From contig NZ_CP097384.1 of the NCBI RefSeq assembly GCF_024584705.1, forward strand, positions 3,100,001 through 3,164,000: DNA of 64,000 nucleotides. Reading direction: 5' to 3'. Below are positions 24,800 to 47,928 of this stretch, piece by piece (positions within the stretch are counted from its first letter, which is position 1; every line of letters starts with the position of its first letter). A program made the position numbers and the translations under genes. Under the pieces are notes generated by a model. It did not search any database, was not told where the DNA came from, and saw only the letters and a program-made list of their open reading frames with translations. Origin of the DNA: Blastopirellula sp. J2-11. Lineage in GTDB: Bacteria; Planctomycetota; Planctomycetia; Pirellulales; Pirellulaceae.

Positions 24800-24955
24800 A
24801 TCAACTTGCAAAAAAGGTCTACGGCGTCGGAATTACGAAGAAAAGCGGCAATGCTCGCCGAATTTGTCGAATGAGCATAACACATCAATGAGGCTTGAAA
24901 TAGGATGAACTCATCGCGAAGACGAACTTCCCCGCAGCATTGACGGCGACAACTC

Positions 24956-26218: not shown

Positions 26219-29200
26219 ATGACAATCTCGACTGATCGAACCGATATCCCGGTGGCGATTGTCGGCATGGCGTGCCGTCTCCCCGGCGCCGCCAACTTGA
26301 ACGAATATTGGCAACTGATCTCCGAGGGGCGATCGGCCGTAGGCGAAGTCCCGGCGGATCGCTTGAATCGTGAGATCTATTACCATCCGGACAAGGGCGT
26401 CCGCGGAAAGACGTACTCGACCAAAGCAGCTGTGCTGGCGGATCGCACGTTCCATCGTGACCGTTGTCCGTTGCCGCAAGAATTGATTGACTCGGTCGAT
26501 AACACGCATCTTTTAATGACCGAAACGGCCGCCGAAGCATTCCGCCATGCCGGCTACGATCCATTCCAACTCAAAGATCGTAATTGTTCTGTTTTTATCG
26601 GCCATGCGCAGGGTAGCTCGCGCCTCGGTGAACTGACGTTTCGCACGTATGTCGATGAAGCGGTCGCTCTACTGGAGGAAACCCCCGAGTTCCAACATTT
26701 GGCTCCCCAAGAGCGCCAAGCCGTTGAGCAGCAGTTGCTGCAAGAGCTCATGGCCGACATTCCGGATGGCGCCGAAGGGTTCCGCTATCTGAACTGCAAC
26801 ATGGTCGCCGGCACCGTCGCCAAAGCGTTCGGTCTGAACGGCTCATGGTTGGCGTTGAACTCAGCATGCGCCTCCTCGTTACACGCGATGTTGATGGGCG
26901 CTAGAGCGCTGCAGCGCGGTCGCGCTGACATGGTCGTGGTCGGGGGAGCGTCGGACTGCAAGTCCGATTCGCTGGTCCTCTTCTCGAACGCCCAAACGCT
27001 TACAAAGGATGATAGTCGCCCCTTCGACTCCGGCGCTGATGGCCTGATCATGTCGGAAGGTTACGTCGCGCTGGTCATGAAAACTCTCGATCGAGCGATC
27101 GCGGACGGCGACCAAATTCAAGCCGTCGTCCGTGGTTTGGGCGTGGCGACCGACGGACGCGGCAAAAGCTTGTGGGCGCCCCGAAAAGAGGGGCAAATGC
27201 GGGCAATGCGCCGCGCGTATCGCAGCGGAGTTGATGTTTCTCGACTGCAGTACTTGGAATGTCACGCGACGGCGACGCAGTTGGGGGACGCTACCGAACT
27301 GGAAACGCTGCGCGAAGTGCTGGAGCCAAACTTCCCTACGGGGAAGAAGATTCCCATCACCAGCGCCAAAGCCAACATCGGGCACGCGCTCGAAGCTGCA
27401 GGCGTCGCTGGGATGATCAAAACGATCCTCTGCATGCAGCATCAGCAATTTCCGGCTGCGATCAATATCAAACAATTGAATACGAAGGTGCCGTGGGACG
27501 AGTCTCCCTTCTTCGTGCCGATGCAGCCAGCCCCGTGGGGTGCGCCCGCCGATGGCGGACCGCGCTGCGCCGCGGTGAATGCCTTTGGCATCGGCGGTCT
27601 AAACATGCATGTGGTGATCGACGAGTATGTCGGTCAAACGGCGGAGCAGATTACCGGCGGACCGCGTCCGGTTGCCGAGACAGCGGACGATCGCGCCATC
27701 GCGATCATCGGCTTAGGCTGCATCGCCCCGGGCGCTGCTGAAATCAACGCCTTCTGGGAATCACTGCAACAAGGGACCGACCCGAAAACGGAACCAACGG
27801 CCGATCGCTGGTCGCCGTTGGCGCGCAAAAAAGCGGCCGATAAGGGAATGCAAGTGCTGGGCGGTTTCATTACGGACTACGCCTACGACTGGCGCAAACA
27901 TAAGGTTCCGCCCAAACAGGTTCTTGAAGCCGATCCGCTGCAGTTCATGTTTCTCGACGCCAGCGAACAAGCGCTTGCTGACGCCGGCTACGATCGCGAA
28001 TCGATCCAGCGCGAACTTTGCGGCGTTGTCATCGGAACCGAATTTGGAGGCGATTTTGGCGATCAACTAGAAATGGGGCTTCGTCTCCCCGAAATGCAGG
28101 CGAAGCTGACCACGCTTCTGCAAACACGTGGACTCGCCGCGGAGAAGATTGAAGCGATCAATCAAGATTTCGCCAAGGTCCTGTTGAAAAAATGGCCTGC
28201 TCTGGTCGACGAAACAGGCAGCTTTACCAGCAGCACGCTGGCTTCGCGAATCAGCAAAACGCTCGACTTGAACGGCGGCGCCGTCGCGATCGATAGCGGC
28301 ACGACTTCCGGCATGTCAGGAATCGCGCTTTGCATCGATTCTCTGCTGTCGGGCGACAACGACATGATGATCTGCGCCGCCGGACAACGTCGCATGGGAA
28401 TCACCATGTTTGACGGGCTGCGAGAGTCGGGCCTGTTGCATTGCGACGCAGCGCCGAAAAACGTCCTCGACGCCGGATACAACGGCGTGGTGCCGAGCGA
28501 AGGCGCCGCGGTTGTCGTCTTAAAACGACTTTCAGATGCGAAACGTGACGACGATCGGATTCGCGCCGTCATTCGTGGGCTGGGCGTCGCAACGCATGAT
28601 TCGCCTGCCGAAGCGATGCGATTGGCGGTCGAGCGCGCCTCGACCATGGCTGACATCGCGCCGAGTGAAATTCAGTTCGTCGATATCGAAACGGACGAAA
28701 ACAACAGCAGCGTCTCGCAATCGCTGTCGACCTTGGCTCACGAGCATACTTCGCCCGATCGCAAACAGCCGCTCCACTTGACTTCAGGCACTGCGCAGTT
28801 TGGGCACATGGGAGGGGGCAGTTCGCTGATCACCGTTCTCAAAGCGGCCCTGGAATCGCAACATCACGAAGTTTCGGCGGCGCGCGAACTTCAACAGCCG
28901 ACCGCAGCATTTAACGGTTCGACCGCCAGCGTACAGACGGCCACCGTCAATGTGAAATTGAACGGCCGCGGACTTGGCGCCGTCGCCACCTGGTCGAAGG
29001 GCCAAGCCTTCTATCTGATCTTGGATGACGGATCCGTTGCGCCGCCCAAGCCGGTTGCTCAAACGGACACGCCGACGACAGCGGAGCAAGTTCAAGCCGC
29101 GCGGATCGTACGTTTTGGCGCCGCGTCGCTGGCCGAATTGAAGAGCATGGTCAACGTTGCGCTGACGGAAGCGGACCAAGCGTTTCACCAAGCCGAGACG

Positions 29201-32200
29201 AAGCAATTTGCCTCCAGCGACAAGGTGCGTCTGGCGATCGTCGCCGACAGTGTTCCGGCGCTGACCAAGAAGCTGACGATGGCGTTGCCGCAACTGGGCA
29301 ATTCCGCTTCGCGTCAGGTGCTGGAACAGCAGGGAATCTTCTGTCGCGAACCGCTCACCACCAAACCGCGCATTGCGTTTTTGTTCCCAGGGCAAGGATC
29401 GCAGTACGAAGGAATGTTGCGTGATCTGGTCAGCCAGTCGCCGGCTGCGGCTCAAATGATGTCGGAAGCGGATGCGGCGATGCGACGGCTTGGTTATCCG
29501 ATCTTTGCAGATCTTGCCTGGAACGCGCCGACGCAGCTAGGAGCCGACGTTTGGAAAACGCAGATCGCCATGTTGTTGGCCGATTTGATCTGTCTGGCGG
29601 CCCTTTCGGAACGGGGCGTAAAACCGGATGTTGTGTTGGGACACAGCTACGGCGAATTCCCTGCTTTGTACGCTGCTGGCGTTTGGAACCTGGACGCGGT
29701 CATTCGTATGACGCGTGCGCGCTGCGATGGAATCAACGCTACTTCACTGAACAACGCCGGACTGTTGGCCACGACCGCTCCGCCAGAAGAGATCAAGAAG
29801 GTCATCGCCGCGAGCGGATGCCAAGCCTATCTGGCCAATTACAACGCTCCTGATCAGACCGTGATCGGAGGCAAATTGGCGGCGCTGGAACAATTGTCCA
29901 AAGCGCTGGCGGCTAAATCATATCCGGCGAGAATCTTGGCGGTTCCGGCTGCATTCCACACGCCGCTGATGGCCGGATCAAGCCGGATGCTGCAACAGGC
30001 GCTCGAAACGGCCGACATGCGAGCGCCGCAAACGCCGTTTATTAGCACCGTTGATAACAACCTGACGGAAGACCCCGTCCGAATCCGTCGCAACTTGGGC
30101 GTGCAACTAACGACTCCTGTCAAATATGCCCCCTTGATTGAACAACTTGCGTTGGAGACGCCGACGATTTTTGTCGAGGTTGGCCCTCAACAAACGCTGA
30201 CGAAGCTAAATCGCCGGATCCTTTCAGGCGATGCAACGGTGATTGCTTCCGACAATCCCAAGCATGGCGGCATCGAGCCCATTTTGTGCGTCGAGGCGCT
30301 GCTGGAATGCCTGGGAGTGAGAGCTCCCGTGGTCAGCACGCCGAAGCCTGTTGTCCCCGCCAAGACAGTAACAGAGACACGTGCGGCGTTTAAGGCCCCG
30401 CAACCGGCAACTGCTCCTGCTGTATCACAACCCATGACTTCTTCGACGGACCGCGCGCCAGTCAAGCCGCAGCCTGTCGCTTCCTCCCGTAGTTCGATTA
30501 GCACCAACGAGAAGAACCAGATGGACGATATTCCGCACTTTGACGCTACTGAGCGTCGTCGCGCGAAGATGCGTGGTTCTGCCCAGGCGTCGCCGCCTGC
30601 GGCATCGCCGCCGACTCCGGCTCCGGCCGCAGTCACGCCTCCCGCGCCGGCGCCGGTCGCAGCGCCAATTGTTCCGAAACCAACGTTTGCCGCCTCGCCA
30701 GCGCCTGCCGCGGTTCAGCCGCCTGCACCACAACCAGCGCCGCCGACTCCGGCCCCTGCCCCGGTTGCGCCGACGCCTGCGGCCGCTGCTGCGAGCGGTC
30801 AAAGCGAAGGGATCGACCTGGAGAAGTTCCTGGTCAACTTTGTGGTCGAGCAGACCGGCTATCCGCCGGAAGTGGTCGATCTCGACGCTGATATGGAAGC
30901 GGATCTCGGCATTGACAGCATTAAGAAGGCCCAGCTGTTTGGCGAGCTGCAGGAATATTTTGACATCAGCACGTCGGCCACCGAATTGTCGCTGGATGAT
31001 TTTCCGACGCTGCGTCACGTGATGGACTTTCTTTCAGCCAGCGGACAAGGAAGCGCCGCTTCGGCGGCTCCTGCCCCCGCGGCGCCTGCTCCGGTGGCCG
31101 CTCCGCCGCAACCGGTTGCTCCGGCAGAGCCGGTCGCTGCTTCGACCGGAACGAGCGCGGCCGAACTCGAATCGTTTCTAGTTAACTTTGTGGTGGAGCA
31201 AACCGGCTATCCGCCGGAAGTGGTCGACCTGGATGCCGATCTCGAAGCCGACTTGGGCATCGACAGCATCAAGAAGGCCCAGTTATTTGGCGAGCTGCAG
31301 GAATACTTTGACATCAGCACGTCGGCCACCGACATGTCGTTGGATGATTTTCCGACGCTGCGTCACGTCTTGAACTTCCTCTCGGCCAGTGGTCAGGCCA
31401 GCGAGAGCACGGCGGCTGCTCCGGTTGTCGCGGCGCCTGTCGCACCGTCGCCTCCGGTTTCGCCTCCTCCGTCGGCCGCGGCGCCTGCTTCGACCGGAAC
31501 GAGCGCGGCCGAACTCGAATCGTTTCTGGTTAACTTTGTGGTGGAGCAAACCGGCTATCCGCCGGAAGTGGTCGACCTGGATGCCGACCTCGAAGCCGAC
31601 TTGGGCATCGACAGCATCAAGAAGGCCCAGTTGTTTGGCGAACTGCAGGAATACTTTGACATCAGCACGTCGGCCACCGACATGTCGTTGGATGACTTCC
31701 CGACGTTGCGTCACGTCTTAAACTTCCTCTCGGGCAACGCTTCCGCCGCGACCGAGGAACCAGCATCTTTTTCCCTGGCCGCTCCGGCGCCGGCTCTGGA
31801 AACTAAAGACAACGCGCCGGCCGTAGCAAACAGCGCTGATGCTGCTGCTGCGGAACTCAATGGTAAGAATTTGGATTTTAGTGCTGCAGCGCCGCTGCCC
31901 CTCGTCGGTACGCCGTACGAAATGGGCTGGCGACACGGCAGCCAATATCGGTCAGAGATTCGTCGCGTACTCCGCACCTATGCGGAGTACGTCGGCGAGT
32001 CGATTGACGAACTCCCTGGCTCAGCTCAATCTGCTCAGGCATTGCAATTGCTGACGCCTGATCAATTGGATGAATTGCAAGGAATCGCCGACGCGATTGA
32101 GACCCCGCTCAGCAACGTCTTGGCTCATCACTTTGCAGTTGCAGAAACGCTGACCGACATGGAGCAAGCGGCCACTACCAGCGACTCTGAAGGCTCATTG

Positions 32201-35200
32201 CTGCACGCCGCACAATTTGAATCGCCAGCGATCAATCCGATGCGCGAGACGATTCAGTTAGCGATGTTTTTGCGAAAGCCGACCAGCGGCTTGTCGCACG
32301 TGGTGGTTGCTCCGATCGGCACGCGTTTGGTGTTAGGGGGAGTCAACTCCGCAGGTTTAACCTGCAGCGGCGAGAACCATTCAGTCCAAGTATTGCAAAA
32401 CGGAGTGAACCTGGAAACTGCGATTGACCTGATGTTGCAATCGTCTGCCGAAGCAGGCGATGTCGTGCTAGGTGATCTCCAGAGTGGCCGTCTGGCCAGC
32501 GTTCAGTCGAATGGGCAGCAACGGCAAGTGATCAGCGATCAGCCAACCGTTTATTGCGGCAAACGTCAAATGGCGCTAGCCGGCGATTCTTCGCTGACAG
32601 AACAAGATGTCGAGTCGTGCGAAGTCGCGAATCTGTTGCTGTCGGCTGACAGTGACGCCCTCGCCTTCTTGTTCGATTTTGGATCGGGACAGTTGTCTCT
32701 AAAGAAATCGACCACATCGCGCTCGATTGAGAATTACTCGCTACACGGACTGTTTGCGGACGCCAGCATTACCACGCCGGCAGTTCCGCAGCGACCAGCA
32801 ACGACTCCACTGACGCAGCCGAACGTTACCGCTCGTTTTGAGCTGGAAATGTGCGATTCGCTGCTCGCTCCAGACGCCGCGACGACGCCTGTTTTCAGTG
32901 GAGCTGCAATCGTGCTCGGCAATGGAGAGACAGCCGCCGCCCTGATCGAACAACTGCAACAAGCGGGCGTTACGACATATCAAATCGCCGACGCAAACGG
33001 TCTAGAGAGCGCCGTCGCCCAGATCGAAGCGATCTGCGCCGCAGGCCCGGCGCCACATCTGTTCATTACAACGGCTCGCGATGATCGCGCGAATATGCGG
33101 TTCGCTGTCGAGTCGACCTGGAACGCTCAACAACAATCGGCTATGGAAACGCCGCTGTTCGTCTGCCAGAAATGGCTGTCGTTGGCGGATGCTGGTGGAT
33201 GGCTGGAGAATACGACCGTAGTTGCAGTGACCGCGCTCGGCGGTGACTTCGGCTTCAGCCGTGGAGCGACGGCGGTTCAGGGAGGCGCTTTGACCGGATT
33301 GATGAAAGCGATTTTCATCGAATACACCGTGATGCGCGGCGGCAAAGGCCCACGCGTGAAAGCGTTCGATACGTCCTCGCAAGAATCACCGCGTCAGATC
33401 GCGAACAACATCTTTGCCGAGCTCGCCTCTGGCAATCAAGATTACGAAGTTTCCTATACCGACGGCGTGCGACGGGTGCCGTTTGCAATGGATCGACCCG
33501 CTGCGACCAAGTCGGCGGCGGAACTGCCGCAAGGCGTTTGGGTTGTTACGGGCGGCGCTCGCGGAATCACGGCCGCATGTGCGTTGGAATTAGGGAAACG
33601 TTACGGCCTGAAGCTCCATTTGATTGGTTCCAGCGAATTGCCGGCGATTGATCCCGCCTGGCGCCAGCTGGATGAAGCGGGTCTGCAAAAGTTGAAGGCC
33701 GAAACGATGATCGCCGCTCGCAAAGCGGGCCAACAAGCGCCGCAAGCGTGGGAACGCGTGCAGAAAAGCTTGGAGATCGACAAGTCGTTACGAGCGTTCG
33801 TCGATAGCGGCGTTTCGGCCACGTACCACGCGTGCGATGTTTCGGATCGCGCCGCGTTGGCGGTCGTGTTGGAAGAAATTCGCCGTGTCGATGGCCCGAT
33901 TTCCGGCATTTTGCATGGCGCCGGCATCGACAAATCGTGCCGGATGGAAAAGAAACGTCGCGAGGTCGTTCAGGCGACAATCGGCGTCAAAGATGGCGGC
34001 ATCGTTCATCTGGCGGCGCTGACCGAGCGGGATCCGATCCGACATTTTATCGGTTTCGGTTCGATCGCTGGTCGACTCGGCAGCTTTGGTCAAGCCGACT
34101 ATTGTCTGGCGAGCGATTTGCTCTGCAAACTGATGAGCGCCTATCGTCGCACGCGTCCGTGGGTTCGAGCAGTCGGCTTCCACTGGCACGGCTGGGATGA
34201 AGTCGGCATGGCGGCTCGCCCCGAAACGAAAAACGTTTTGAACGATAAGAGCGCCTTAAAACTGATGCCGCTAGCGGAAGGCGTGGGGCACTTGATTCGC
34301 GAAATCGAGACCGATGTCCCGCGCGGCGAAATTCTGATCACCGAGCGGCGTCATTGGCAACGTTTTGCGGACGGTTTGGGGATTTTGGCCCAAAGTCGTG
34401 CCGAAGCGAGTCCGACGGCGACTCCAGCAGAGCCGACCGAAACCGCTTCGACCGAGCCGCTTGGCCCGGCGGACGCAGCGGTGGATCTGCGAACCGAGCG
34501 CTGCGAGTTGAAACTGATCGATTCGCCGCTTGCTGCGGGAACTCCGACCGCGCCGACGTTTGACGCGCCGGTTTGGATCTTGGGCGAAAACGCGGATGCG
34601 GTGGAACTAGAGCAACGACTGCAACAAGCGGGCGTCGAGGTCTATCGGTTTGGCGCACGCGCCGACTTGGACGAAACGCTGGCTTGGCTTGACTCGCTGC
34701 ATCCTGAGAAGCCGGCGAAGCGGCTCTTTTTAATGACCAGTCGTGATGTGTTGTCGGCCGACTCGCTGTCAGCCGCCGAGATTGATCGTCGTCGTCACGA
34801 AGGAATCATCGCGCCCTACTTCATCGCCCAAAATTGGTACAAGCGGCTTCTAAAATTTCCCCAAGCAGGAACCGGCGATCTGGTCGCTGCAACTTCACTG
34901 GGGGGAGACTTTGGCTTTGAGTCGACAGTGCAAACCCCTGATGGGGGTGGCGTCGCCGGCTTTATGAAGTCGCTGCACATTGAAGACTCGCGACTTGATC
35001 ATCGTGTTGCCCGCTGCAAAGTGATTGACGCTCCGGTCGAGGAATCGCCTGCAAACCTGTTTGACGCAATGATGCGTGAACTTGCCGCCGCTCAGCCCGA
35101 AGTCGAAGTGAGCTGGAGCCGCGGCGTTCGCCGTGTGATTCGGCCGATTGGAACCCCGCTGGAACTTGGACCGGCCGCGAACATTCCGCGTGGCGGAACT

Positions 35201-36949
35201 TGGGTCGTGACCGGCGGTGCTCGCGGGATTACGGCGATCGCCGCGCGCGAGTTGGCGGCTCGCTACGGTTGGAAGTTACATCTACTGGGCAAGAGTCCGG
35301 CGCCGCTGGTCGACGCCGCCTGGCGCACCTTTGACGAAGAACAGCTTAAAACCTACAAAACGCAGATTGCTCGAGAAGCGGTCGCCGCCGGCGGTTCGCC
35401 GGGGCAGGCATGGGATCGCGTTTTGAAAGACTGCGAGATCTTCAACAACCTGCAGCGGTTTGCGGATGCCGGCGTTCAGGCGACCTATCATCAATGCGAC
35501 GTTACTGATCGCGATGCAGTCGCAACGGTTTTGGAAGAAATTCGTCGCGTCGACGGTCCGATCAACGGACTGATGCATGGCGCCGGTTTAATTGAGCCGG
35601 GGCGTTTTGATCACAAACGTCGCCCATTTGTCGAAAAACTGATTCGCGCTAAGTTTGACGGGCTGCTCCATTTGTTCGCGCTTACGCAGCAGGATCCGTT
35701 GACGCATTGCATCGGGTTCGGCTCGATCAGCGGTCGATTTGGTGGGAACGGACTGAGCGACTACGCGGCCGGCAACGACTCGATGTCGAAGGCGCTCGAC
35801 TGGTTTCGCTCGGCGCGTCCTGATTGCACGACGCTCTGCATCCACTGGGAATCGTGGGAAGGCGCCGGCATCGCGACGCTGTCTCGATTTGCGTGGGGAC
35901 CGCGATCAGTGATGAAGATGAAATATATGCTGCCGGAAGAAGGAGTTCGGCGGATGGAGGAAGAAATGGCCGGCGGCGGATTGAAAGCGGAGACGCTCTA
36001 TACGTTCGGCGACTTCTACCCGATGTTCTATCCGAACGAACAATTCCCGTTGGGCGAGTTCCAGCCCCGATCTGGCGATGCGGTCGATAGTTCGTTTCCA
36101 CTGGTCGCGACTTCGCGCACCGAGGGAGATGAGTTGGTTGGCGACGTGCCGCTCGACCCGGTGAGTGATCCCTTCTTGTCGTTGCATCGACTGCGCGGCA
36201 AACCGTTGATGCCGGTTGTCGTGACGTTGGAAGCGCTGCGAGAAGCGGCCGAGTTGGCTTCCGGCAAAAAGGTAGTCGCCTTCTGTGACGTCGACATGAT
36301 TGACGGCCTGGCGTTTCATACCGACAACGCAGCAACTGCCCAGGCGCGAGCCAAGCTGGTTGGCGACCATGTCGCCGAGTGCCGCTGGACCTGCGATTTC
36401 CGGAATCGAACCGGCGGATTGATTCAAAAAGACCGCCTTTACTTGCAAGCAAACATCGAACTGGCCGATGCGCCAGTTGCGATCACAGCCGAACTGCCGC
36501 CGTTTCCGAGCGAGTGGAGCGCTGTGACGTATCCCGAGGATAGCGCCATCTATCATGGCGCTCCATTCCGCTGCTTGAAGGCGCTCAGTTGCGACGCCGC
36601 GAGCGGTTGGGGACATATCGTCGCGCAGCCTTTGGCCGATTTGACGAAACCCGAACGCGTGGATGGATGGCGCATTCCTTCCTGCGTGCTCGATTCGGCC
36701 CTGTATGCGTGCGGCTGTCAGTTATACCTGCATAGCGAGGGAGCGGTTTCACTGCCCCGGAAGATCGAGCGATTGGAGATTGGTCGGCTGCCGAGCGATG
36801 GCGAAAACTGCTACGTCTATTTTGTATGTCGTGACGTGGCCGAAAAATCGGCGCTCTATGATCTGACTCTGTTTGGTGAAAACGGAGACGTGATCTTCAA
36901 AGCGATTGGCTATCAGAAAGTGATTCTTGGCCGAGGAGGAGTCGCATGA
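26219..36949 (+). CDS. Giant iterative type I polyketide/PUFA-type synthase (KS-CLF-AT-ACP3-C45like-KR-KR-DH)
   Basis: A 3576-residue megasynthase. Domains in order: KS (8-470) with nucleophile C217 in NSACASS, His in ECHATAT and His in ANIGHA; a KS-like domain (490-930) in which the cysteine position is T695 (IDSGTTSG) and the first His is lost, as in a chain-length-factor; AT (1050-1360) with S1143 in GHSYGEF and the HTP histidine; a Pro/Ala linker; three ACPs with phosphopantetheine serines S1567, S1683 and S1799 in GIDSIKKAQ; a degenerate C45-like domain (about 1890-2180); KR1 (2440-2740, VTGGARGIT, Tyr in GQADY); KR2 (2993-3270, Tyr in GLSDY); and a DH (about 3300-3570) with [10 protein letters not shown] and LDSALYAC. 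The tandem ACPs and the IDSIK motif are PUFA-synthase traits. No enoyl reductase or thioesterase domain is present; separate genes downstream supply reduction and release. Confidence 0.93.
31141..31733 (+). repeat. Two near-identical tandem ACP-coding repeats
   Basis: Bases 31141-31385 and 31489-31733 (245 bp each, offset 348 bp) encode ACP2 and ACP3 of the synthase. I count eight differences between the copies, all synonymous, so the encoded ACP segments are identical. ACP1, 348 bp upstream, is clearly more diverged in DNA. The pattern points to recent duplication or ongoing gene conversion with selection on the protein. Confidence 0.9.
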
Positions 36950-37647
36950 TTACCTCGCCGACTTGGATCGTTCGATATGTCGCAGATACGCGTCGATTGC
37001 CAATCGACGCGCAAGACGCTTGGCTAAGCGCCGCAGAGGAAGCCGAACTGGCTTTTTTTGCGCACGAAGATCGCCGTCGACAATGGTTGCGAGCGCGCTG
37101 GATCGCCAAGCGTTTGATTGCTCTGTCGAGTGATTCCACCGATTTACGGCGGGTTGAAATTTTGTCCCGCTCGACCAGCGGCTTGGGGGTAGCGCCGCAA
37201 GTTTTTGTGGATGGAAAACCGACCCAATACCGCATTTCGTTGTCTCATACCGGCAGCGCCGTGTTGGTAGGGATGACGACCGATGCGACGTCGATCGGCG
37301 TTGATTTGGCTTGGGACGTTCCGCAAGACAGGCATTTTTCGAGCGCTTGGTTTAGCGAGCGTGAACAAGCCTGGCTTGCCGAACGCCCGGGGTCGGCTTC
37401 CCTGCTATGGGGATTGAAGGAAGCGATTTTCAAATCACAGGGAGACAGCCAGACCTGGAACCCGCGAGGCGTAGAAATCGAATCGTATGGCGAGCATGAG
37501 GTTCGCTGTTCTTTGTTTGGACGCCGACTAGCGCCCCTTTCGACGTGGATTCGCACGTCTAGCCGGGGAACTGCGACGGCAGTCTGGCAAGCGAAAACTC
37601 AGGATGCTCCAGTCACCGTCCGGCAGGAGTTTTCCTCATGTTTGTAA
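36946..37647 (+). CDS. 4'-phosphopantetheinyl transferase (Sfp-like)
   Basis: A 233-residue PPTase that would attach the phosphopantetheine arm from CoA to the three ACPs of the preceding synthase. The conserved motifs are present: RISLSHTGSAVLVG, IGVDLAWD (the magnesium-binding GVD-x-E/D region, here with Asp) and WGLKEAIFK (W-x2-KEA-x2-K). Length and two-fold pseudo-symmetry fit the Sfp/EntD class rather than the short AcpS class. It starts inside the synthase stop codon (ATGA), so translation is coupled, and its end overlaps the next gene by ten bases. Confidence 0.92.
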   Translation: MITSPTWIVRYVADTRRLPIDAQDAWLSAAEEAELAFFAHEDRRRQWLRARWIAKRLIALSSDSTDLRRVEILSRSTSGLGVAPQVFVDGKPTQYRISLSHTGSAVLVGMTTDATSIGVDLAWDVPQDRHFSSAWFSEREQAWLAERPGSASLLWGLKEAIFKSQGDSQTWNPRGVEIESYGEHEVRCSLFGRRLAPLSTWIRTSSRGTATAVWQAKTQDAPVTVRQEFSSCL

Positions 37648-38801
37648 GCAAAGAACATCATCCGCAGGTTCTGCCGCGCGAGTCTTATTTTGATCCGGCG
37701 ATCTACCAAAAGGAGATCGACACGATCTTGTTGCCGGCATGGCATTGCGTTGCAGTGATGAGCGAATTGCCTCGCAACGGATCGTTTGTGACGCTCGACT
37801 TGTTTCAACGCCCGATTATTCTGTGGCGTAACGAAGATGAAGTCAGCGCTTTCCTGAACGTATGCTCGCATCGCTATGCGAAACTGACTTGCAAATCGTG
37901 TGGGATCGCTGAGCGTTTGCATTGCCAATATCACGGTTGGGAATATGACGAAACAGGCAACGTCCGAAAAATCCCGGACGCGAAAACATTTCGCCCACTC
38001 GCGCAAGGAATGCTAGGACTAAAGCGATTTCGCGTCGAACGCTGCGGCGAACTCGTGTTCATCAACTTGTCGGAAGATGGGCCGAGCTTGCAGGAGTTTT
38101 TAGGAGACAAGTTTCAACTGTATGAATCCTGGTTTTCGCCGGAGATGCATACGGCGATCGTGATGACGCGCAAGATCAACGCGAATTGGAAGTGCCTGGT
38201 CGAAAATGCACTGGAAAGTTATCACACGACTGAGGTTCATCCCAAAACCTTCGGCGAGGCGCCGGACGAGAAAGATTGCACGCATCAGCTGAACGACACC
38301 TGGACATCGCTGTTTGTCGATTACAGCGAGGAACGCTCGTTTCGGGCGACGCTCGATCAGATCGGACATTGGCTGGTGGGACGCCAGCGAGATTCATCCT
38401 ACGAACATATTTTGCATTACCCCAACGTCATGATCGCGCGATTGTCGCTCTATCGTTGGGTCGAATGCGTGATCCCCGTATCGCCGGATCAGTCGTTGTC
38501 GGTGGTCCGTTTGATGTGCCATATCGGCGAAAAAGGACAACTGCGGCGATTGTGGAATCGCAGCTTTATCAGCAAATGGGCCAATGATTTTTTGACCCAG
38601 GTGGGCTCAGAAGACGCTGGAATCTTACCGCACATTCAAGCCGGATTAGCGGCGGCCGATCAGCCGACCGGCGGTTTGATTTCAACACGTGAAGAACGCA
38701 TTTTTCATTTTCAGAACTACATCGAGCGTGCGAGCCAAACGCCAGGTTCGGACGATGCGAACGAAGTACTTCCAATTCGATTTTCAGGAAACGCAACATG
38801 A
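37638..38801 (+). CDS. Rieske-type non-heme iron oxygenase, large subunit
   Basis: A 387-residue aromatic-ring-hydroxylating-oxygenase-like protein. The Rieske [2Fe-2S] ligands are CSH (in VCSHRYAKL) and, 17 residues later, CQYH. The catalytic iron site reads ENALESYHTTEVH, giving two histidines, with Glu where most ring hydroxylases have the bridging Asp; that variant occurs in choline- and carnitine-type monooxygenases. These relatives act on aliphatic substrates, so hydroxylation or desaturation of the lipid chain or head group is more likely than ring attack. No ferredoxin or reductase gene lies in the operon, so electrons must come from elsewhere. It overlaps the PPTase end by ten bases and the next gene by four (ATGA). 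Confidence 0.88.
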   Translation: MFVSKEHHPQVLPRESYFDPAIYQKEIDTILLPAWHCVAVMSELPRNGSFVTLDLFQRPIILWRNEDEVSAFLNVCSHRYAKLTCKSCGIAERLHCQYHGWEYDETGNVRKIPDAKTFRPLAQGMLGLKRFRVERCGELVFINLSEDGPSLQEFLGDKFQLYESWFSPEMHTAIVMTRKINANWKCLVENALESYHTTEVHPKTFGEAPDEKDCTHQLNDTWTSLFVDYSEERSFRATLDQIGHWLVGRQRDSSYEHILHYPNVMIARLSLYRWVECVIPVSPDQSLSVVRLMCHIGEKGQLRRLWNRSFISKWANDFLTQVGSEDAGILPHIQAGLAAADQPTGGLISTREERIFHFQNYIERASQTPGSDDANEVLPIRFSGNAT

Positions 38802-39562
38802 TTAACCTCTCCGGACGTATCGCTTTGGTTACCGGGAGTTCGCGCGGAATGGGGCGCGCTTCCGCATTGCGACTTGCCGAAGCAGGCTGCGACGTCATCG
38901 TCAACTATGTCACGTCACGCACCGCCGCTATGGAAACGGCGAAGGAAATTCGCGCGATGGGACGACGGTCGTTTGTCGTCAAAGCGGATGTGAGCAAAAA
39001 AGATGATGTCGAATCGATGATGGAGTACATCGGCGAACATATTCAACAACTAGACATTATCGTCAGCAATGCGGCGACCGGCGGATTTCGTCCGTTGATG
39101 GCGGCGAACGAAAAACACTTTGAAAACACGTATCACACCAACGTGCTGGCGATGCTGTTCCTCGTGCAGGCCGGTTTGCCGTTGCTCGAAAAAAGCAAGG
39201 GCCGCGCGAAAGTGATCGGCATCAGCAGCCATGGCTCAGACATGGCGTTGCCATGGTACGGGCTGATCGGCAGCTCGAAAGCGGCGCTGGAAAGCTTGGC
39301 GCGCCATCTCACCTTGGAAGTCGGTGACAAAGGGGTGAACGTCAATATCATCAAATCGGGCCTGGTAGAAACCGATTCGACCAAACGCCTGCCAGGCGCC
39401 GGCGAGATGTTCGATCATCGTAAAGACAAAACGATGATGGGCGACCGAATGCTGAGCATCGAAGACATCGCGGATGCGGTCCTGTTTTTGGCCTCACCGT
39501 TGTCGGATCTCGTTCAAGGCGAGACGCTCGTCGTCGACGGCGGCGCTGCGGTACACGTGTAG
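38798..39562 (+). CDS. SDR-family enoyl-ACP reductase, FabL-like
   Basis: A 254-residue short-chain dehydrogenase. The cofactor motif is VTGSSRGMGRASALRLAEAG, followed by VSNAATGGFRP and the catalytic pair Y-x6-K in WYGLIGSSKAALESLARHL; the C-terminus is LVVDGGAAVHV. The SSRG turn, the SNAA(T/S)G stretch and the VDGG ending are closer to the NADPH enoyl reductase FabL than to FabG. The synthase has two ketoreductase domains and a dehydratase but no enoyl reductase, so this protein may fill that gap; a ketoreductase or alcohol dehydrogenase role cannot be excluded. ATGA overlap with the Rieske gene; 36 bases to the next start. Confidence 0.85.
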   Translation: MINLSGRIALVTGSSRGMGRASALRLAEAGCDVIVNYVTSRTAAMETAKEIRAMGRRSFVVKADVSKKDDVESMMEYIGEHIQQLDIIVSNAATGGFRPLMAANEKHFENTYHTNVLAMLFLVQAGLPLLEKSKGRAKVIGISSHGSDMALPWYGLIGSSKAALESLARHLTLEVGDKGVNVNIIKSGLVETDSTKRLPGAGEMFDHRKDKTMMGDRMLSIEDIADAVLFLASPLSDLVQGETLVVDGGAAVHV

Positions 39563-39598
39563 TCGATCAAGACGTAATTGCAAGGCAATATTTTCCGT

Positions 39599-41095
39599 AT
39601 GAAGTATCACTTGTTAACCGGCGCAACAGGATTGCTTGGCCGGTACTTAATTCGAGATCTGACCTTGGCCGACGTGCCGTTGGCGGTTGTCGTGCGCCGA
39701 TCTCGATTTGAATCGGCGGCGCAACGGATTGAGACCGCGATGGCGTATTGGGAAGCGGAGCTCGGTCGAGCGCTCGTTCGCCCTGTCGTCTTGGAAGGAG
39801 ATATCACCCAACCCGGTTTGGGACTTTCGACCGCCGACCAAACATGGGTCGCTGAATATTGCGACACGATGGTCCACTCCGCCGCATCGCTGACGTTTTA
39901 CGCCGATGACGAAGAAGGAGAACCGTGGCGCAGCAATATCTTGGGGACGCGTCATATGCTGGGCTTATGCCGCGACGCCGGGATTCGCAAATTGCATCAT
40001 GTTTCGACCGCCTATGTCTGCGGAAAGCGTCGTGATGTGATCCGCGAAGAGGAAGTCGACGTTGGACAAGAGCCCAGCAACGACTACGAATCAAGCAAAT
40101 TAACGGCTGAGAAAGAAGTTCGCGCCGCGGATTTCCTGGATGTGCTTACCGTGCATCGTCCTTCGATTATCGTGGGAGATGCGGAGACTGGGTTTACGGT
40201 TTCGTATCACGGGTTTTACACGCCGCTGCGATTGATTCACGCTTTGGTGACCTCATTGCCATGGGAAGTGTTCATTCAATGCGATCTGCTGGCTGCGTTG
40301 CAGTTGGATGGATCGGAACGAAAGAACTTAGTTCCTGTGGACTGGGTTTCGACGGCGATGACCGAGGTGATCGCACGTCCCGAACTGCATGGTGAGACGT
40401 ATCACTTCACGAATCCCAATCCTGCAACCGTGGCCGACATGTTGTCGGCGGTTGCATCGATGGTCATTAAGTTGGCACGTCCGGATGAACCGTCCTCCGG
40501 CAATAAAAATATCTCCATTGATGAAATTGGTGATACGTTCCGCGAGCAAATGGGCGTTTACCAATCATACTGGAGCGACGATCCTGCGTTTGATTCGACG
40601 CGCACCGAGCAAGCTTTGCCAAATTTGCCTTGCCCTGCCGTGGATGACGCGATGATGGACCGTTTGATCACCTTCGCACTTGAAAAGAATTTCGGTTGGC
40701 CGCGCGAAGCGTCGGCCAAAATTAAGTTTCCGGTCGCTGAAAACTTGGCTCCTTGGCTGGCTAGCGCCAACGGGCTCACGAATGGATCCAGCGACCGTCG
40801 GTACGTCAGTTTGCAGATTAGCGGCAGCGGCGGCGGACAATGGCACATGATCGTAGATCATGGGCGGTTGGTCGGCGTTGGGTCGGGTTTGCAAAATGGC
40901 GACAGTCCCACCTGCTATTTAAACAGCGACACGTTTACGCGATTAACGCGCGGAGAGCTCTCTTGGGAATCGGCATTGCAATCGGGTCGTCTCGTGACGA
41001 CTGGTCATGCGGCAAGTTCCGAACAGCTCGCTCGTTGTTTTCACGATCTTGCCTCTTTGACCCGCTCCAACACCACTAACAACTGCGCCAATTGA
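39599..41095 (+). CDS. Thioester reductase (male-sterility type) with C-terminal SCP2-like domain
   Basis: A 498-residue protein with an extended-SDR thioester-reductase domain (about 1-330). The nucleotide motif is LLTGATGLLGRYLI, then VHSAASLTFYAD, the catalytic-type STAYVCG and the Y-x3-K of NDYESSKLTAEKEV. Such domains release an acyl chain from an ACP or CoA as an aldehyde (or alcohol) with NAD(P)H. The last 115 residues (GQWHMIVDHGRLVGVGSG...TFTRLTRGELSWESALQSGRLVTTG) look like an SCP2 sterol/lipid-binding domain. ATG 39599 is taken; the frame extends seven codons upstream to TTG 39578. In this operon it is the obvious chain-release enzyme, and the aldehyde would be a substrate for the next gene. 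Confidence 0.85.
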   Translation: MKYHLLTGATGLLGRYLIRDLTLADVPLAVVVRRSRFESAAQRIETAMAYWEAELGRALVRPVVLEGDITQPGLGLSTADQTWVAEYCDTMVHSAASLTFYADDEEGEPWRSNILGTRHMLGLCRDAGIRKLHHVSTAYVCGKRRDVIREEEVDVGQEPSNDYESSKLTAEKEVRAADFLDVLTVHRPSIIVGDAETGFTVSYHGFYTPLRLIHALVTSLPWEVFIQCDLLAALQLDGSERKNLVPVDWVSTAMTEVIARPELHGETYHFTNPNPATVADMLSAVASMVIKLARPDEPSSGNKNISIDEIGDTFREQMGVYQSYWSDDPAFDSTRTEQALPNLPCPAVDDAMMDRLITFALEKNFGWPREASAKIKFPVAENLAPWLASANGLTNGSSDRRYVSLQISGSGGGQWHMIVDHGRLVGVGSGLQNGDSPTCYLNSDTFTRLTRGELSWESALQSGRLVTTGHAASSEQLARCFHDLASLTRSNTTNNCAN

Positions 41096-41108
41096 AAGAC
41101 ACAAAGCA

Positions 41109-42479
41109 ATGAACGGGGGTAACGCCATGACGGGAATGATTTCCAAAACGGATTCAAGCGGAGCGGCTCTTAGTGCGAAAACGCTGGAACGCGGTCGCAA
41201 GAGCATCGCGGGCGGCGACAGCAGTACGATGCGAGTTCTGCCCTATCACATTCCTCTTGTCGCTGACCGCGGCGAAGGGAGCCGACTGTGGGATATCGAC
41301 GGCAATGAGTACATCGACTTAAACATGGCTTATGGGCCGCTGCTGTTGGGCCATCGGCCCAAGCAAGTGATCGAAGCCGTGTATCGTCAGATTTCGGAAC
41401 AGGGGAGTCAGCTTGGTTTTCCGACCGAAGTGACGATTCGGGTCGCCGAAAAGTTGAAACAACTGTTTCCGTGCATTGAACTGCTGCGATTCGCCAATTC
41501 GGGGACCGAAGCCTGCGCTTCAGCGATTCGTTTGGCCCGGACCTACACCGGCAAACGTAAGCTGATTATGTTTGAAGGTCACTATCACGGTTGGAGCGAA
41601 GCGGTCTTCACCAAGTACCACGCTCCGCTGGAGATGTTGCCAGAGTGCGGTTATGGTCCCGCGATCCCAGGCACTACCGGCATGACTGACGCCTTGGATG
41701 ACGTGATCACTTGCCAATGGAACGATCTCGACGCGCTGCAGCGTTGCTTGGAAGAGCATGGCGACGACGCCGCTGCGGTGATCATGGAGCCGATCTCGGG
41801 TAACGCCGGCTTGTTGCTTCCGCGCGATGGTTACTTGGCCACAGCTCGCGAAATGATCCATGATCGCGGTGGTCTGCTAATCTTCGACGAAGTGATCACC
41901 GGCATGCGAGTCGCCGCAGGCGGCGCCCAAGAGCACTATCTCGTTTCGCCCGATATCACCGTCGTTTCGAAAGCGATGGGCGGCGGCTATCCCGTAGGAT
42001 CGTTTGGCGCTTCGGCTGAGATTATGAGCTGCATTACCAATGGCCCGCTCTTCCACGGCGGCGTCTTCTCAGGAAATGCGGTTGTGATGTCGGCCGCCGA
42101 AGCGGTGCTCGACACCGTTCTGGCCGACAAAGAAAACATCTACGCCAACTTGCATGCTCTCGGTGATCAATTGGCCGGCGGTATCGACGATATCTACAAT
42201 CGTCTTGGCGTCCCGCACCATGTTCATCACTTAGGCCCGTTGTTGGCCGGTTTGATCACCAAGACCGATGTCGAAGGGCTGTACAACTACCGCGATGTTC
42301 GACGTCATTGCGACTTCGAACGCTACATCCAGTTCCAACACCAGATGCAGCGCAGTGGAGTTTACTTCCATCCGAATGAATTCGAACCGATGTTCCTGTC
42401 AACCGCTCATACTTCAGCCGACATCGACGAGGTTTTGGAGCGTTGGGAAGATGGAGCCCGACAGTGTCTGGTCCGGTAA
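41109..42479 (+). CDS. Class III PLP aminotransferase, GSA-aminomutase-like
   Basis: A 456-residue fold-type I PLP enzyme closest in pattern to glutamate-1-semialdehyde aminomutases and related aminotransferases. Visible motifs are RLWDIDGNEYIDLNMAYGPLLLGH, RFANSGTEACASAIRLARTYTGK, GHYHGW, the PLP-binding Asp in LLIFDEVITGMR and the Schiff-base lysine in TVVSKAMGGGYPVGSFG. True HemL would not be expected in a lipid operon, so amination of a long-chain aldehyde made by the thioester reductase is the best reading; the amino donor is unknown. The start may instead be ATG 41127, which has a GGGGG tract seven bases upstream. It overlaps the ligase start at 42464 by 16 bases. Confidence 0.88.
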   Translation: MNGGNAMTGMISKTDSSGAALSAKTLERGRKSIAGGDSSTMRVLPYHIPLVADRGEGSRLWDIDGNEYIDLNMAYGPLLLGHRPKQVIEAVYRQISEQGSQLGFPTEVTIRVAEKLKQLFPCIELLRFANSGTEACASAIRLARTYTGKRKLIMFEGHYHGWSEAVFTKYHAPLEMLPECGYGPAIPGTTGMTDALDDVITCQWNDLDALQRCLEEHGDDAAAVIMEPISGNAGLLLPRDGYLATAREMIHDRGGLLIFDEVITGMRVAAGGAQEHYLVSPDITVVSKAMGGGYPVGSFGASAEIMSCITNGPLFHGGVFSGNAVVMSAAEAVLDTVLADKENIYANLHALGDQLAGGIDDIYNRLGVPHHVHHLGPLLAGLITKTDVEGLYNYRDVRRHCDFERYIQFQHQMQRSGVYFHPNEFEPMFLSTAHTSADIDEVLERWEDGARQCLVR

Positions 42480-43945
42480 TTTCCGACACGATTTGGAGTG
42501 CGGCGCCAATCCTGGATGCTGTCGAGAACTATCGCGGCAGCATTATCGATCTTGATGCGCAGCGCGTCATTTCGGCGGACGAATTTGCACGCGCTCGCGT
42601 GGCCTTGATCGGCGAGTTTCGCCGACAAGGCTTGGCTTCCGGCGATCGCGTCCTGGTGACGATCGGCAATGGTCCTCTCTTTCCGGCGGCGCTGGCGGCG
42701 CTGTTGGCTTGCGAGGCTTCTCCGTTGCTTGTGCATGTCATGACGCCGCCAGCCGAGTTGGCTCGCTATTCCAAACGGTTCGGCGTGAAGTGGCTCGCCA
42801 GTTATGGCGGCGATTCGCAAGCGGCTACGGTCCTTTCGCACCAACAACAACTGCAACCGCTTGACGGTTGGAATCTGTTGTGGGGCGCGTTTTCCGAACC
42901 GACGAGCGTCCCCGGTCCAGAACTGCGTGGAGTTCCGCTTCATCCGACCTCGGGTTCGACTGGCCTGCCAAAGATCGCACTTCGACCCGGTTTTGCGGCG
43001 ATGGAAGAAGCTCGGCACTACGCCGAAACGATGGCGATTTGCGAAGATGATTGCCTCTTCGCAATTCCGCCGATGAGCCACGCGTATGGCTATGGTTTGA
43101 CCGTGATGACGCCGCTGCTCTCTGGCGCCAGCATCGTGACGACCGCCAATTTCAGCATGAAAAAGCTGGCCGACGTCCTGCGCGACTATCCGGTGACCCT
43201 GCTGCCGATGGTCCCGGCGCATATTGATATGTTGCTGTTTGGCGGTTCGATTGATTTTGGTCGGTTACGTTGGCTGTTGACCGCCGGATCGATGATGCCG
43301 CGTCGCTCGGCAGTCCAGTTTCGCAAGAAGACCGGCGTCACCGTCTGTCCGCTTTATGGAACGACCGAAACCGGCGGAATATCGGTGGCGACCACGGCCG
43401 ATGGACAAGATGTCGATGGTCGGGTCGGCCCTCCCATGAACGGCGTCAAAGTTTGCGTTCGCGCTCCTACGGACGCCGAAGATCTGGGAATGGAGCTCGG
43501 CGTTGGCAAGCTGCACATTCAAAGCAGCTCGATGATGGCCGGCTATCTTGATGAGCATGGCGCGATCATTCACCCGTGGGACGCTGACGGTTGGTTTGAG
43601 ACAGGCGACCTAGCGAGAATCGCCGGCGACGGCGTGATTCATTTGCGTGGGCGTACCGGCGAGATGATTAACGTCTTGGGACTAAAAGTGGTTCCCTGCG
43701 AAGTCGAAGAAACGATCGCCGCGATGCCAGGCGTCCGCGAAGTCAAAGTTTACGGCAGTCGCTTGGCCTCTCAAGCCGAGATCGTCAAAGCGGCGATCGC
43801 GGTCGAACCCGGCGTAGATGAGTTAGCCATCCGCGCCTATTGCGAAGAGCATTTGGTTTACTACAAACGTCCGCAGGCGATCGCATTGGTGGATGCGTTG
43901 CCGCGTTCGCCCGCCGGCAAGATCGTTCGCGATCGACTTCCTTAG
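42464..43945 (+). CDS. AMP-forming acyl-CoA/acyl-ACP ligase
   Basis: A 493-residue member of the ANL adenylating family. The ATP motif is HPTSGSTGLPKIA (A3), with YGTTETGG (A5), WFETGDLARI (A7) and the terminal catalytic Lys in PRSPAGKIVRDRLP (A10). GTG 42464 is chosen as start because a GGAG site precedes it; it overlaps the aminotransferase end by 16 bases. It could load a starter acid onto the synthase ACPs, or activate the acyl group that the downstream condensation-type protein joins to an amine. No carrier-protein domain is fused to it. The N-terminal region is short for the family. Confidence 0.88.
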   Translation: MSGPVISDTIWSAAPILDAVENYRGSIIDLDAQRVISADEFARARVALIGEFRRQGLASGDRVLVTIGNGPLFPAALAALLACEASPLLVHVMTPPAELARYSKRFGVKWLASYGGDSQAATVLSHQQQLQPLDGWNLLWGAFSEPTSVPGPELRGVPLHPTSGSTGLPKIALRPGFAAMEEARHYAETMAICEDDCLFAIPPMSHAYGYGLTVMTPLLSGASIVTTANFSMKKLADVLRDYPVTLLPMVPAHIDMLLFGGSIDFGRLRWLLTAGSMMPRRSAVQFRKKTGVTVCPLYGTTETGGISVATTADGQDVDGRVGPPMNGVKVCVRAPTDAEDLGMELGVGKLHIQSSSMMAGYLDEHGAIIHPWDADGWFETGDLARIAGDGVIHLRGRTGEMINVLGLKVVPCEVEETIAAMPGVREVKVYGSRLASQAEIVKAAIAVEPGVDELAIRAYCEEHLVYYKRPQAIALVDALPRSPAGKIVRDRLP

Positions 43946-43974
43946 TGATAGGCCTAACAGCCGGGAGCTTGCCG

Positions 43975-45366
43975 ATGTCGCAAGTCGCTGACGTTCCGCA
44001 AACGGAATTCAACACATCGTTGAACAAACTCTTCCCTCTGCCTCTCTCACCGGTAGAGAAGTTCATGTTCGCCGATGGTCGGCCGCAATACCCCATGATG
44101 TGCGACGCCGAGGCGCGCTTCCAAGGGACCATTGAGCGCGCCCCCTTTGAAGAAGCGTTTGAGTTCGCTCTGAGCCGCGCCCCGATCTTTCGCAGCGTCA
44201 TTGAACACGACAAAAAGCGGGGCGATCTCTGGCGTCTGACCGATCTTCGTCCTGAAGTCGATTGGGGCGAATATGGCGACGCGCATGAAACTTGTTACGA
44301 CGACCTGATTGACCTTCGCCAGAATGTAGGACTTCGCATCTACGTTCGCAGCGGCAGTGAACGATCGTCGATCATGTTTCACTTTCATCATGCTTGCGCC
44401 GATGGAGTTGGCGCGTTTGCTTTTATCGAAGATTTTTTGGCTGGCTACAACAACGCGACGCCTGGGGCCAAGCCGGTAACGCCGCGCAAACTGGAACCGG
44501 AACGCTTATTGGATCGATGCAATTCGGCTCTTGAGAATCCAACTTGGACGCAAGGACTGCGAGATGTAGCGAGCGGCGTCGCCAGCGCATTTCGATTTTT
44601 TGCGGAACGACCGCTGCCGCTCACAAGCGGATTACCATCGATTGCGACGGATGCGCAACGCCAACAAAACGGATTTGTCACGCAATCGTTGTCGCACGAG
44701 ACGACGGTCGCGCTGCGACGATTCTCGTCAGAGTCGAAAGTAACCCTGAACGATCTGCTCTTGCGTGATCTATTCATGACGCTGCATGAGCAAATCGAGG
44801 CGCAGGGTTTTCCCATCCGCCGTCGACAGCTGCGCGTCTTGATGCCGCAAAATTTGCGTGGCCGCGGCGATAACGCAATGCCGACGACCAACGATGTGGG
44901 GTTCGCCTTTTTGACGCGTCGCGGCGAACTGTGCAAAATGCCCGACGAGCTGCGAAAGTCGTTGGCCTGGGAGACCGGCGTGATTCGCTCGGATCGCTTG
45001 TCGCGGTATTTTATTGGTGGACTGGCTGGAATCCAATCAGTCGGAGCGCAACCCTGGATCGTGAACGGCAAGTTTTGTTTCGCGACCGCCGTGTTGACCA
45101 ACTTCGGCAATTCTTGGCGCCGTTTCGCCACCAAGCTGCCGATGGCCAACGGTGGATTGGTCGCTGGCAACGTTGTCTACGATTGCTTGATCGGCGTGCC
45201 TCCGGTGCGTCCCCGCACTGCCGGCGCTTTTAGCGTGACGACGACTGCGGACAAACTATTTTTGACGCTCAAGCAAGATCCGTTCTTTTTCACACGGGAA
45301 GAATCGGAGCATCTACTGGCGCTGTTCGCTCAAAAAGTAACGCAGACGGCCGAATTGGCCCGGTAA
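43975..45366 (+). CDS. Free-standing condensation-type acyltransferase (HHxxxDG)
   Basis: A 463-residue protein of the condensation/WS-DGAT/PapA acyltransferase superfamily. The catalytic motif is FHFHHACADGVGAFAF (HHxxxDG), about 135 residues from the start, and the second-half segment LRVLMPQNLRGRGDNAMPTTNDVGF corresponds to the structural DFGWG-like region. Such enzymes make amide or ester bonds between an activated acyl group and an amine or alcohol. ATG 43975 is set by a GGGAG ribosome site seven bases upstream. As the last gene of the operon it is placed to join the amine made by the aminotransferase to an acyl group, though ester formation is equally possible. Confidence 0.82.
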   Translation: MSQVADVPQTEFNTSLNKLFPLPLSPVEKFMFADGRPQYPMMCDAEARFQGTIERAPFEEAFEFALSRAPIFRSVIEHDKKRGDLWRLTDLRPEVDWGEYGDAHETCYDDLIDLRQNVGLRIYVRSGSERSSIMFHFHHACADGVGAFAFIEDFLAGYNNATPGAKPVTPRKLEPERLLDRCNSALENPTWTQGLRDVASGVASAFRFFAERPLPLTSGLPSIATDAQRQQNGFVTQSLSHETTVALRRFSSESKVTLNDLLLRDLFMTLHEQIEAQGFPIRRRQLRVLMPQNLRGRGDNAMPTTNDVGFAFLTRRGELCKMPDELRKSLAWETGVIRSDRLSRYFIGGLAGIQSVGAQPWIVNGKFCFATAVLTNFGNSWRRFATKLPMANGGLVAGNVVYDCLIGVPPVRPRTAGAFSVTTTADKLFLTLKQDPFFFTREESEHLLALFAQKVTQTAELAR

Positions 45367-45382
45367 ACAGCCATCTTTTAGG

Positions 45383-45413
45383 TTGGTGATGCAGCGCAAT
45401 GTTCCGCTATAAT
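45383..45413 (+). promoter_or_regulatory. Possible sigma-70 promoter before the second PSD1 gene
   Basis: TTGGTG (45383-45388) and a perfect TATAAT (45408-45413) are 19 bases apart, slightly longer than ideal. The TATAAT overlaps the ATG at 45412, which supports the later ATG (45460) as the real start of the PSD1 gene and implies a separate transcript from the synthase operon. Confidence 0.4.
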
Positions 45414-45459
45414 GGAGCCGATTGCGAGCCACTTTCCCCCGCCTAAAATTGCCCTCCGT

Positions 45460-47913: not shown

Positions 47914-47928
47914 CTGCCAACGAAAATC

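Follow-up and report, generated by a model that had tools for sequence, protein, structure and literature searches.

Which product is made by an operon that joins a large lipid synthase to an aminotransferase, an acyl ligase and a condensation-type protein is the question raised by a 64,000-nucleotide stretch of Blastopirellula sp. J2-11 DNA (contig NZ_CP097384.1, positions 3,100,001 to 3,164,000; hereafter the window), from a genome that consists of one contig of 6.43 Mb. The eight-gene operon, headed by a synthase of the polyunsaturated fatty acid (PUFA) type, belongs to a set of ten genes that also includes an upstream hydrolase of the metallo-beta-lactamase (MBL) fold and a divergent MMPL/HAE3 exporter, and its product is probably a nitrogenous alkyl lipid that is exported. 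The ten genes are given below in window positions.

22520..24811, minus strand: divergent MMPL/HAE3-type resistance-nodulation-division (RND) exporter of 763 amino acids (aa); Pfam MMPL 90.5 bits, and NCBIfam HAE3 (130 bits), ActII and HpnN all below their cut-offs.
24956..25801, plus strand: MBL-fold, YtnP-lactonase-like hydrolase of 281 aa; Pfam Lactamase_B 68 bits, YtnP 182 bits (below the cut-off of 425), HxHxDH motif.
26219-45366, plus strand: the eight-gene operon, in the order synthase, 4'-phosphopantetheinyl transferase (PPTase), Rieske oxygenase, FabL-like short-chain dehydrogenase/reductase (SDR), thioester reductase, class III aminotransferase, AMP-ligase and condensation-fold protein.
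26219..36949, plus strand: single-chain PUFA-type synthase of 3576 aa, from domain and motif searches; TIGR02813 (PfaA) 929.5 bits.
36946..37647, plus strand: PPTase; Pfam ACPS 36 bits, WGLKEAIFK motif.
37638..38801, plus strand: alpha subunit of a Rieske oxygenase, GbcA/carnitine-monooxygenase-like; CxH...CxxH and ExYHxxxxH motifs.
38798..39562, plus strand: FabL-like enoyl reductase (SDR); FabL the best NCBIfam model at 265 bits, below its cut-off of 328; Yx6K motif.
39578..41095 (ATG start probably at 39599), plus strand: thioester reductase; NAD_binding_4 141 bits, TIGR01746 129 bits (below the cut-off of 213), YxxxK motif.
41109..42479, plus strand: class III aminotransferase resembling glutamate-1-semialdehyde aminomutase (GSAM); pyridoxal phosphate lysine in VSKAMGGG.
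42443..43945, plus strand: AMP-dependent acyl/aryl ligase; AMP-binding 129 bits, ligase core motifs present.
43975..45366 (or from 43945, should the GTG upstream be the start), plus strand: free-standing condensation-fold acyltransferase; PF00668 Condensation 44.6 bits, above the gathering cut-off of 30.6.

All ten components were found in identical order in eight other genomes, which belong to two related genera and include Blastopirellula marina DSM 3645 from the genus of the source strain, so the grouping is not due to chance. The MBL hydrolase (62-92% identical) and the exporter (66-93% identical) keep their positions in these genomes, and the FabL-like reductase is 91-99% identical (by tblastn 97% in G121 and 95% in G443, where the PPTase is 71% identical). 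This gene-order search had been named beforehand as a check on a preliminary description of the locus. That description was right about the eight operon genes, which all lie on the plus strand and are kept gene for gene in the eight further genomes, and it missed the hydrolase and the exporter, present just upstream in all nine. That neighbouring genes overlap or lie a few bases apart is true of most junctions: the synthase and PPTase genes overlap by 4 base pairs (bp), PPTase and Rieske by 10 bp, Rieske and SDR by 4 bp, and aminotransferase and ligase by 37 bp, and gaps of 15-36 bp (set by the choice of reductase start) and 13 bp precede and follow the thioester reductase gene. The long overlap of the ligase and condensation genes in a mechanical list of open reading frames (ORFs) is probably a start-codon artefact; with the ATG at 43975, which several relatives use, a gap of 29 bp results. 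Promoter- and terminator-like sites were not used as evidence: none of the former lay between exporter and synthase (1.2 expected) and eight lay within 36500-46000 (4.8 expected, sd 1.8), and the latter were not above shuffles in either region. Downstream, at 45412-49392, are genes for a PSCyt1/PSCyt2/PSD1 protein and a DUF1501 protein; genes of similar size follow the operon in the source genus. In the second genus they do not, and the gene that comes after the operon in 5/5 genomes encodes about 1270-1290 aa, with a short ORF before it in G205.

Judged by its domains and motifs, the first gene encodes a PUFA-type (secondary-lipid) synthase that combines ketosynthase (KS), chain-length factor (CLF), acyltransferase (AT), acyl carrier protein (ACP), isopenicillin-N acyltransferase (IAT)-like, ketoreductase (KR) and dehydratase (DH) domains in the order KS-CLF-AT-ACP3-[IAT-like]-KR-KR-DH, as follows.

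26249..27646, plus strand: KS; catalytic triad C217, H349, H389 present.
27701..29053 (approximate limits), plus strand: CLF; SGTTSG, KS-site cysteine missing.
29369..30250, plus strand: AT; GHSYG.
30776..31828 (approximate limits), plus strand: three tandem ACPs; LGIDSIKK in each, Ser 1567, 1683 and 1799.
31871..32788 (approximate limits), plus strand: N-terminal nucleophile (Ntn)-hydrolase-type domain of the IAT / acid ceramidase / NAAA fold, between ACP3 and KR1; nucleophile Cys replaced.
33536..34198, plus strand: catalytic part of KR1; structural half probably directly upstream.
35195..35860, plus strand: catalytic part of KR2, from domain and motif evidence.
36113..36916, plus strand: dehydratase of the polyketide synthase (PKS) type; HxxxGxxxxP and second-half Asp present.

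All domains named in the preliminary description were found, the KS, AT, ACPs, KRs and DH with their expected motifs and the CLF without the KS cysteine; the domain that follows ACP3, ahead of KR1, had been overlooked. In an alignment of 21 synthases, from which the catalytic residues were taken, the nine operon genomes all keep the KS Cys-His-His, a Cys-less CLF, the AT GHSYG, three LGIDSIKK ACPs, Ser and Tyr of both KRs, and the DH HxxxGxxxxP and Asp; KR or ACP columns are gapped in several relatives, indicating either fewer such domains there or misalignment. A canonical PfaA of the eicosapentaenoic/docosahexaenoic acid (EPA-DHA) synthases was rejected, the TIGR02813 score lying below the curated cut-off of 1010 bits, and no PfaD model appeared for the ten genes among the NCBIfam matches listed (the best 25 for long lists). 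Elsewhere in the source genome, another large PKS-like gene, of 2561 aa (G000:C1 about 6035400-6043000; L195, L196), has a KS only 33% like that of the operon, and KS-, CLF- and KR-like matches at G000:C1 about 922588-926095 (L013), one with an in-frame TAG inside the match, possibly mark a separate type II cluster.

Synthases of this kind have been described in many phyla, and in the available part of the survey by Shulse and Allen the planctomycetes are represented by types I and J (PMC3098273). With its types A-T the operon enzyme shares KS, CLF, AT, tandem ACPs, KR, DH and an adjacent PPTase, but KS-CLF-AT-ACP3-IAT-KR-KR-DH is not among the domain orders written out in that text, and the main text makes no mention of Blastopirellula (PMC3098273).

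The closest precedent for the helper genes is zeamine and fabclavine biosynthesis, and it proved closer than had been claimed. According to the accessible part of PMC3547906, zmn10-14 and zmn19 encode, besides a PUFA-type synthase and an SDR, a thioester reductase, a condensation protein that stands alone and an aminotransferase domain of the GSAM-like kind, all of which have counterparts in the operon. As described there, however, PfaA-, PfaC- and PfaD-like genes are split and the aminotransferase is fused to a PfaD-type enoyl reductase, whereas here one synthase chain is found with a free-standing aminotransferase and a FabL-like enoyl reductase. The single-chain synthase and the Rieske enzyme had been noted as setting the operon apart, and both differences hold on gene comparison; the ligase, the lactonase-like hydrolase and the MMPL exporter are likewise found on the operon's side only. 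Nor did the ten genes or the scanned flanking genes include an assembly line of nonribosomal peptide synthetase (NRPS)/PKS type, another zeamine feature. Lacking split Pfa genes, a PfaD-fused aminotransferase and an NRPS line, the operon is not of the zeamine type; it works like part of the zeamine pathway.

From the enzymes, motifs and linkage, which are given by the sequence, we infer the substrates, the order of steps, an amide instead of an ester, and export. Once activated by the PPTase, the synthase would use its ACPs to build up a long acyl chain; the FabL-like reductase would saturate this chain in trans and the thioester reductase would release it as an aldehyde. The core of synthase, PPTase, enoyl reductase and thioester reductase would yield an aldehyde or alcohol whose long chain is mostly saturated. 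The GSAM-like aminotransferase would convert the aldehyde to an amine, to which the condensation-fold enzyme would couple a second acid activated by the ligase. The Rieske enzyme may oxidise the product, the lactonase-like hydrolase may edit or trim, and the MMPL/HAE3 protein, the probable lipid exporter by family, would move the lipid out of the cell. This full pathway, with amination of a released fatty aldehyde, is put forward tentatively, its chance being a little short of even. Analogy favours it: the zeamine genes include the same helpers, and for myxochelin B the GSAM-like MxcL is the proposed enzyme of amination, acting on an aldehyde set free by reduction, as stated in the available parts of PMC3547906 and PMC3870968.

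An aminotransferase that proved to be a true HemL (glutamate-1-semialdehyde aminomutase) had been named as one finding that would overturn the nitrogenous-lipid reading. By cut-off the operon enzyme is not HemL: its TIGR00713 score is 361 bits against a cut-off of 527, and a separate, full HemL (609 bits) is encoded elsewhere in the genome. A third HemL-like gene (G000:C1:1389457-1390710; L002) scores 400 bits, also below the cut-off, and is 32% identical to the operon aminotransferase. The model of GntE, a transaminase of the guanitoxin pathway (PMC10367076, in its available part), gave 358 bits against a cut-off of 525. In the aminotransferase tree a branch (82/98) separates the 18 family members from PDB entry 4zm3 and HemL; no branching is resolved among 4zm3, HemL and the operon family, and several outgroups have long branches.

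The distribution of the aminotransferase was determined in a phylum sample (7/392 genomes at E <= 1e-120), a class sample (15/387 at E <= 1e-140) and ten chosen genomes (5/10 at E <= 1e-90), which when pooled gave 18 different genomes, G393 = G703 and G401 = G389 being counted once each. The ligase adjoins the aminotransferase in 18/18. A synthase homologue is present in 17/18, lying with the pair in the stretch examined in 14, on the same contig in G619 and on other contigs in G394 and G396. Within the class sample the aminotransferase occurs in 4/4 genomes of the source genus and in five of the second genus. In the KS tree the 17 rows from aminotransferase genomes fall within one 20-row set (92/92; 97/99 without one long row) that also holds three rows from two genomes without the aminotransferase (G392 twice, G395), so the gene was gained or lost more than once, the starred branches forcing at least two events. 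Across the planctomycetes, synthase, thioester reductase and enoyl reductase form a wider core, and the aminotransferase-ligase pair is an addition to it.

Several observations weigh against amination of the released aldehyde. Synthase and thioester reductase occur without the aminotransferase in G152, G365, G291, G392 and G395 (whole-genome searches), and at least two second-genus genomes of the class sample (G449, G589) gave no aminotransferase match, so the enzyme is not essential there; conversely, no synthase was found in G703/G393 (90% complete), which carries the genes for aminotransferase, ligase and condensation protein. The looser GSAM model NF000818 gave 387 bits, just short of its cut-off of 398, so by that model the enzyme may still have aminomutase-like chemistry. 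The aminotransferase keeps Ser and Arg at positions that presumably form the carboxylate site of HemL, although these residues could also serve an amino donor. Among solved structures the nearest to it is 4zm3, at 42% identity against 37-39% for three HemLs; we take 4zm3 to be PctV, a 3-aminobenzoate synthase that works on a small keto acid. Since the aminotransferase occurs wherever the ligase does beside it but not wherever the reductase does, and 4zm3 is the nearest solved structure, the enzyme may instead make the acid for the ligase. Of the nitrogenous-lipid proposal in the preliminary description, the PUFA-type synthase, the thioester reductase, a non-HemL aminotransferase and a condensation enzyme with intact HHxxxDG all stand, and its weak point is the action of the aminotransferase on a released aldehyde.

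Such a head-group cassette, in which a small amino acid (e.g. aminobenzoate from 3-dehydroshikimate) is made by a PctV-like enzyme and activated by the ligase, with editing by the hydrolase, and is then joined by the condensation enzyme, as an ester, to a fatty alcohol formed by the thioester reductase with or without an SDR, would bring in nitrogen with the head group; we consider it a serious though somewhat doubtful alternative. Conversion of dehydroshikimate to 3-aminobenzoate has been reported for PctV, in the available part of PMC5879953. Besides the constant adjacency of aminotransferase and ligase, the MBL hydrolase adjoins the ligase in 8/9 aminotransferase genomes outside the two genera (the exception is L058), and reductase, synthase and condensation genes are found without the pair. 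No ligase of at least 40% identity was seen in the stretches examined of ten synthase loci, from nine genomes, that lack the aminotransferase (G152, G365, G291b, G339, G392, the second synthase G392b, G395, L087, L103 and L109), several of which end at contig ends; G395 has a 28% ligase adjoining an MBL hydrolase and exporter. The source-strain enzyme also shares the active-site motifs NMxYGP, GHYHGWSE and HPN with 4zm3. Against this, GHYHGWSE is not conserved in all 18 members, 42% identity does not fix a substrate, the tree gives 4zm3, HemL and the operon family no resolved placing, and the zeamine and myxochelin GSAM-like enzymes act on released chains.

A mid-chain amine would result if the aminotransferase acted on a synthase-bound beta-keto intermediate, in the manner of MycA or zeamine, with the reductase giving a terminal alcohol. 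MycA-type GSAM domains carry out such amination (PMC3870968, PMC3547906), and, as suggested for zeamine in the available part of PMC3547906, an iterative synthase could pass over its ketoreduction in some of the cycles. The operon aminotransferase, however, is free-standing and paired with a ligase, and MycA is a weaker PDB match (E 1.6e-49) than 4zm3 (4e-98) or HemL (5e-88), which makes this route very unlikely. Equally improbable is a nitrogen-free, wax-ester-like or glycolipid-like surface lipid, with aminotransferase and ligase serving a separate neighbouring step; it would suit the occurrence of the wider core without the pair in several planctomycetes, the second-genus genomes without the aminotransferase and the weak wax-ester-synthase likeness of the condensation protein, but gene order and overlaps are conserved in the nine genomes with the set, and the pair lies with the synthase in most stretches examined.

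The condensation protein is a member of the condensation-domain superfamily, with HHACADG (HHxxxDG intact; neither His nor the Asp varies among 17 aligned sequences) and a best Foldseek match at E 7.8e-19; as a true wax ester synthase/DGAT (TIGR02946) it was rejected at 37.6 bits against a cut-off of 310. By eye, 9 of 63 loci with condensation relatives have domains of the operon's synthase type within the stretch examined and 4 more have a weaker KS-bearing PKS; most relatives lack an adjoining synthase, so the condensation protein alone is no marker. In other planctomycetes (L071, L074, L079, L083, L091) condensation-fold genes stand in tandem pairs, with no synthase in the stretches examined. 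The closest solved structure to the thioester reductase is MxaA, and its relatives occur in 33/392 genomes, mostly with no adjoining synthase in the stretches examined; its end (40700-41092) is weakly like SCP2, a sterol-carrier protein, four SCP-type families matching only at E 0.03-0.1. The Tyr-x6-Lys of the FabL-like protein is the enoyl-reductase pattern. The Rieske enzyme looks accessory, since its gene is present in 9/9 operon genomes and in 0/9 other aminotransferase genomes (stretches examined); Rieske relatives of 31-33% identity adjoin synthases in L103 and L109. An exporter of the operon type is nearby in three of the nine non-operon aminotransferase genomes (G722, G574, G581), a 25% relative is found in L058, and none was detected by tblastn in the examined stretches of G740 and G397.

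The domain overlooked between ACP3 and KR1 appears from modelling and profile matches to carry the AAT/C45 Ntn acyltransferase fold, shared with isopenicillin-N acyltransferase, acid ceramidase and NAAA. Pfam AAT (PF03417) matched two relatives above its gathering cut-off of 23.2 bits (L063, 35 bits; L057, 33.5 bits) and gave no match in the source-strain copy, L085 or L072. An AlphaFold2 model of the source-strain domain, weak at a mean pLDDT of 60.7, matched isopenicillin-N acyltransferase 2x1c in Foldseek (E 7e-10, prob 1.0, TM 0.42-0.47), with acid ceramidase and NAAA among the other matches, and VIA-align gave Z 13.8, rmsd 5.8 and 266 aligned positions against 2x1c, bile salt hydrolases lying at similar Z. 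Unlike those Ntn hydrolases, this domain sits inside a megasynthase and the source-strain copy lacks the catalytic Cys, a Met standing at the aligned nucleophile position. The Cys is present in only 2/19 aligned copies (G365, G291b), one being that of Pirellula sp. PB1.007 (L063/G365; L063:5462-6838), and another residue takes its place in the remaining 17, those of the nine operon genomes among them; by this criterion of sequence a live embedded acyltransferase, or working C45 enzyme, was rejected for the source strain.

We know of no Ntn-hydrolase-type acyltransferase domain in other fatty-acid or polyketide synthases, and among the titles and opening parts of abstracts in the open-licence literature no description was found of the gene set, its product or an acyltransferase-fold domain in such a synthase. 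On a broader reading, planctomycetes would have a family of PUFA-type synthases, each a single chain, in which an acyltransferase domain of the Ntn-hydrolase type is embedded. Members that keep the Cys would transfer the chain in cis, onto either an amine or a hydroxyl. In the Blastopirellula branch the domain would be dead, and the thioester reductase, the aminotransferase, the ligase and the condensation enzyme would have taken over its task, so that exported nitrogenous surface lipids of a new class result. As a whole this seems unlikely, though worth stating. The embedded acyltransferase-fold domain would itself be an added domain type for megasynthases. The lipids and natural products of planctomycetes have received little study, and the occurrence of the ten-gene set in two genera, including the named type strain B. 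marina DSM 3645, offers a testable route to a new lipid class, while the cassette logic, a wider synthase-reductase core to which an aminotransferase-ligase-hydrolase unit is joined, provides a handle for genome mining.

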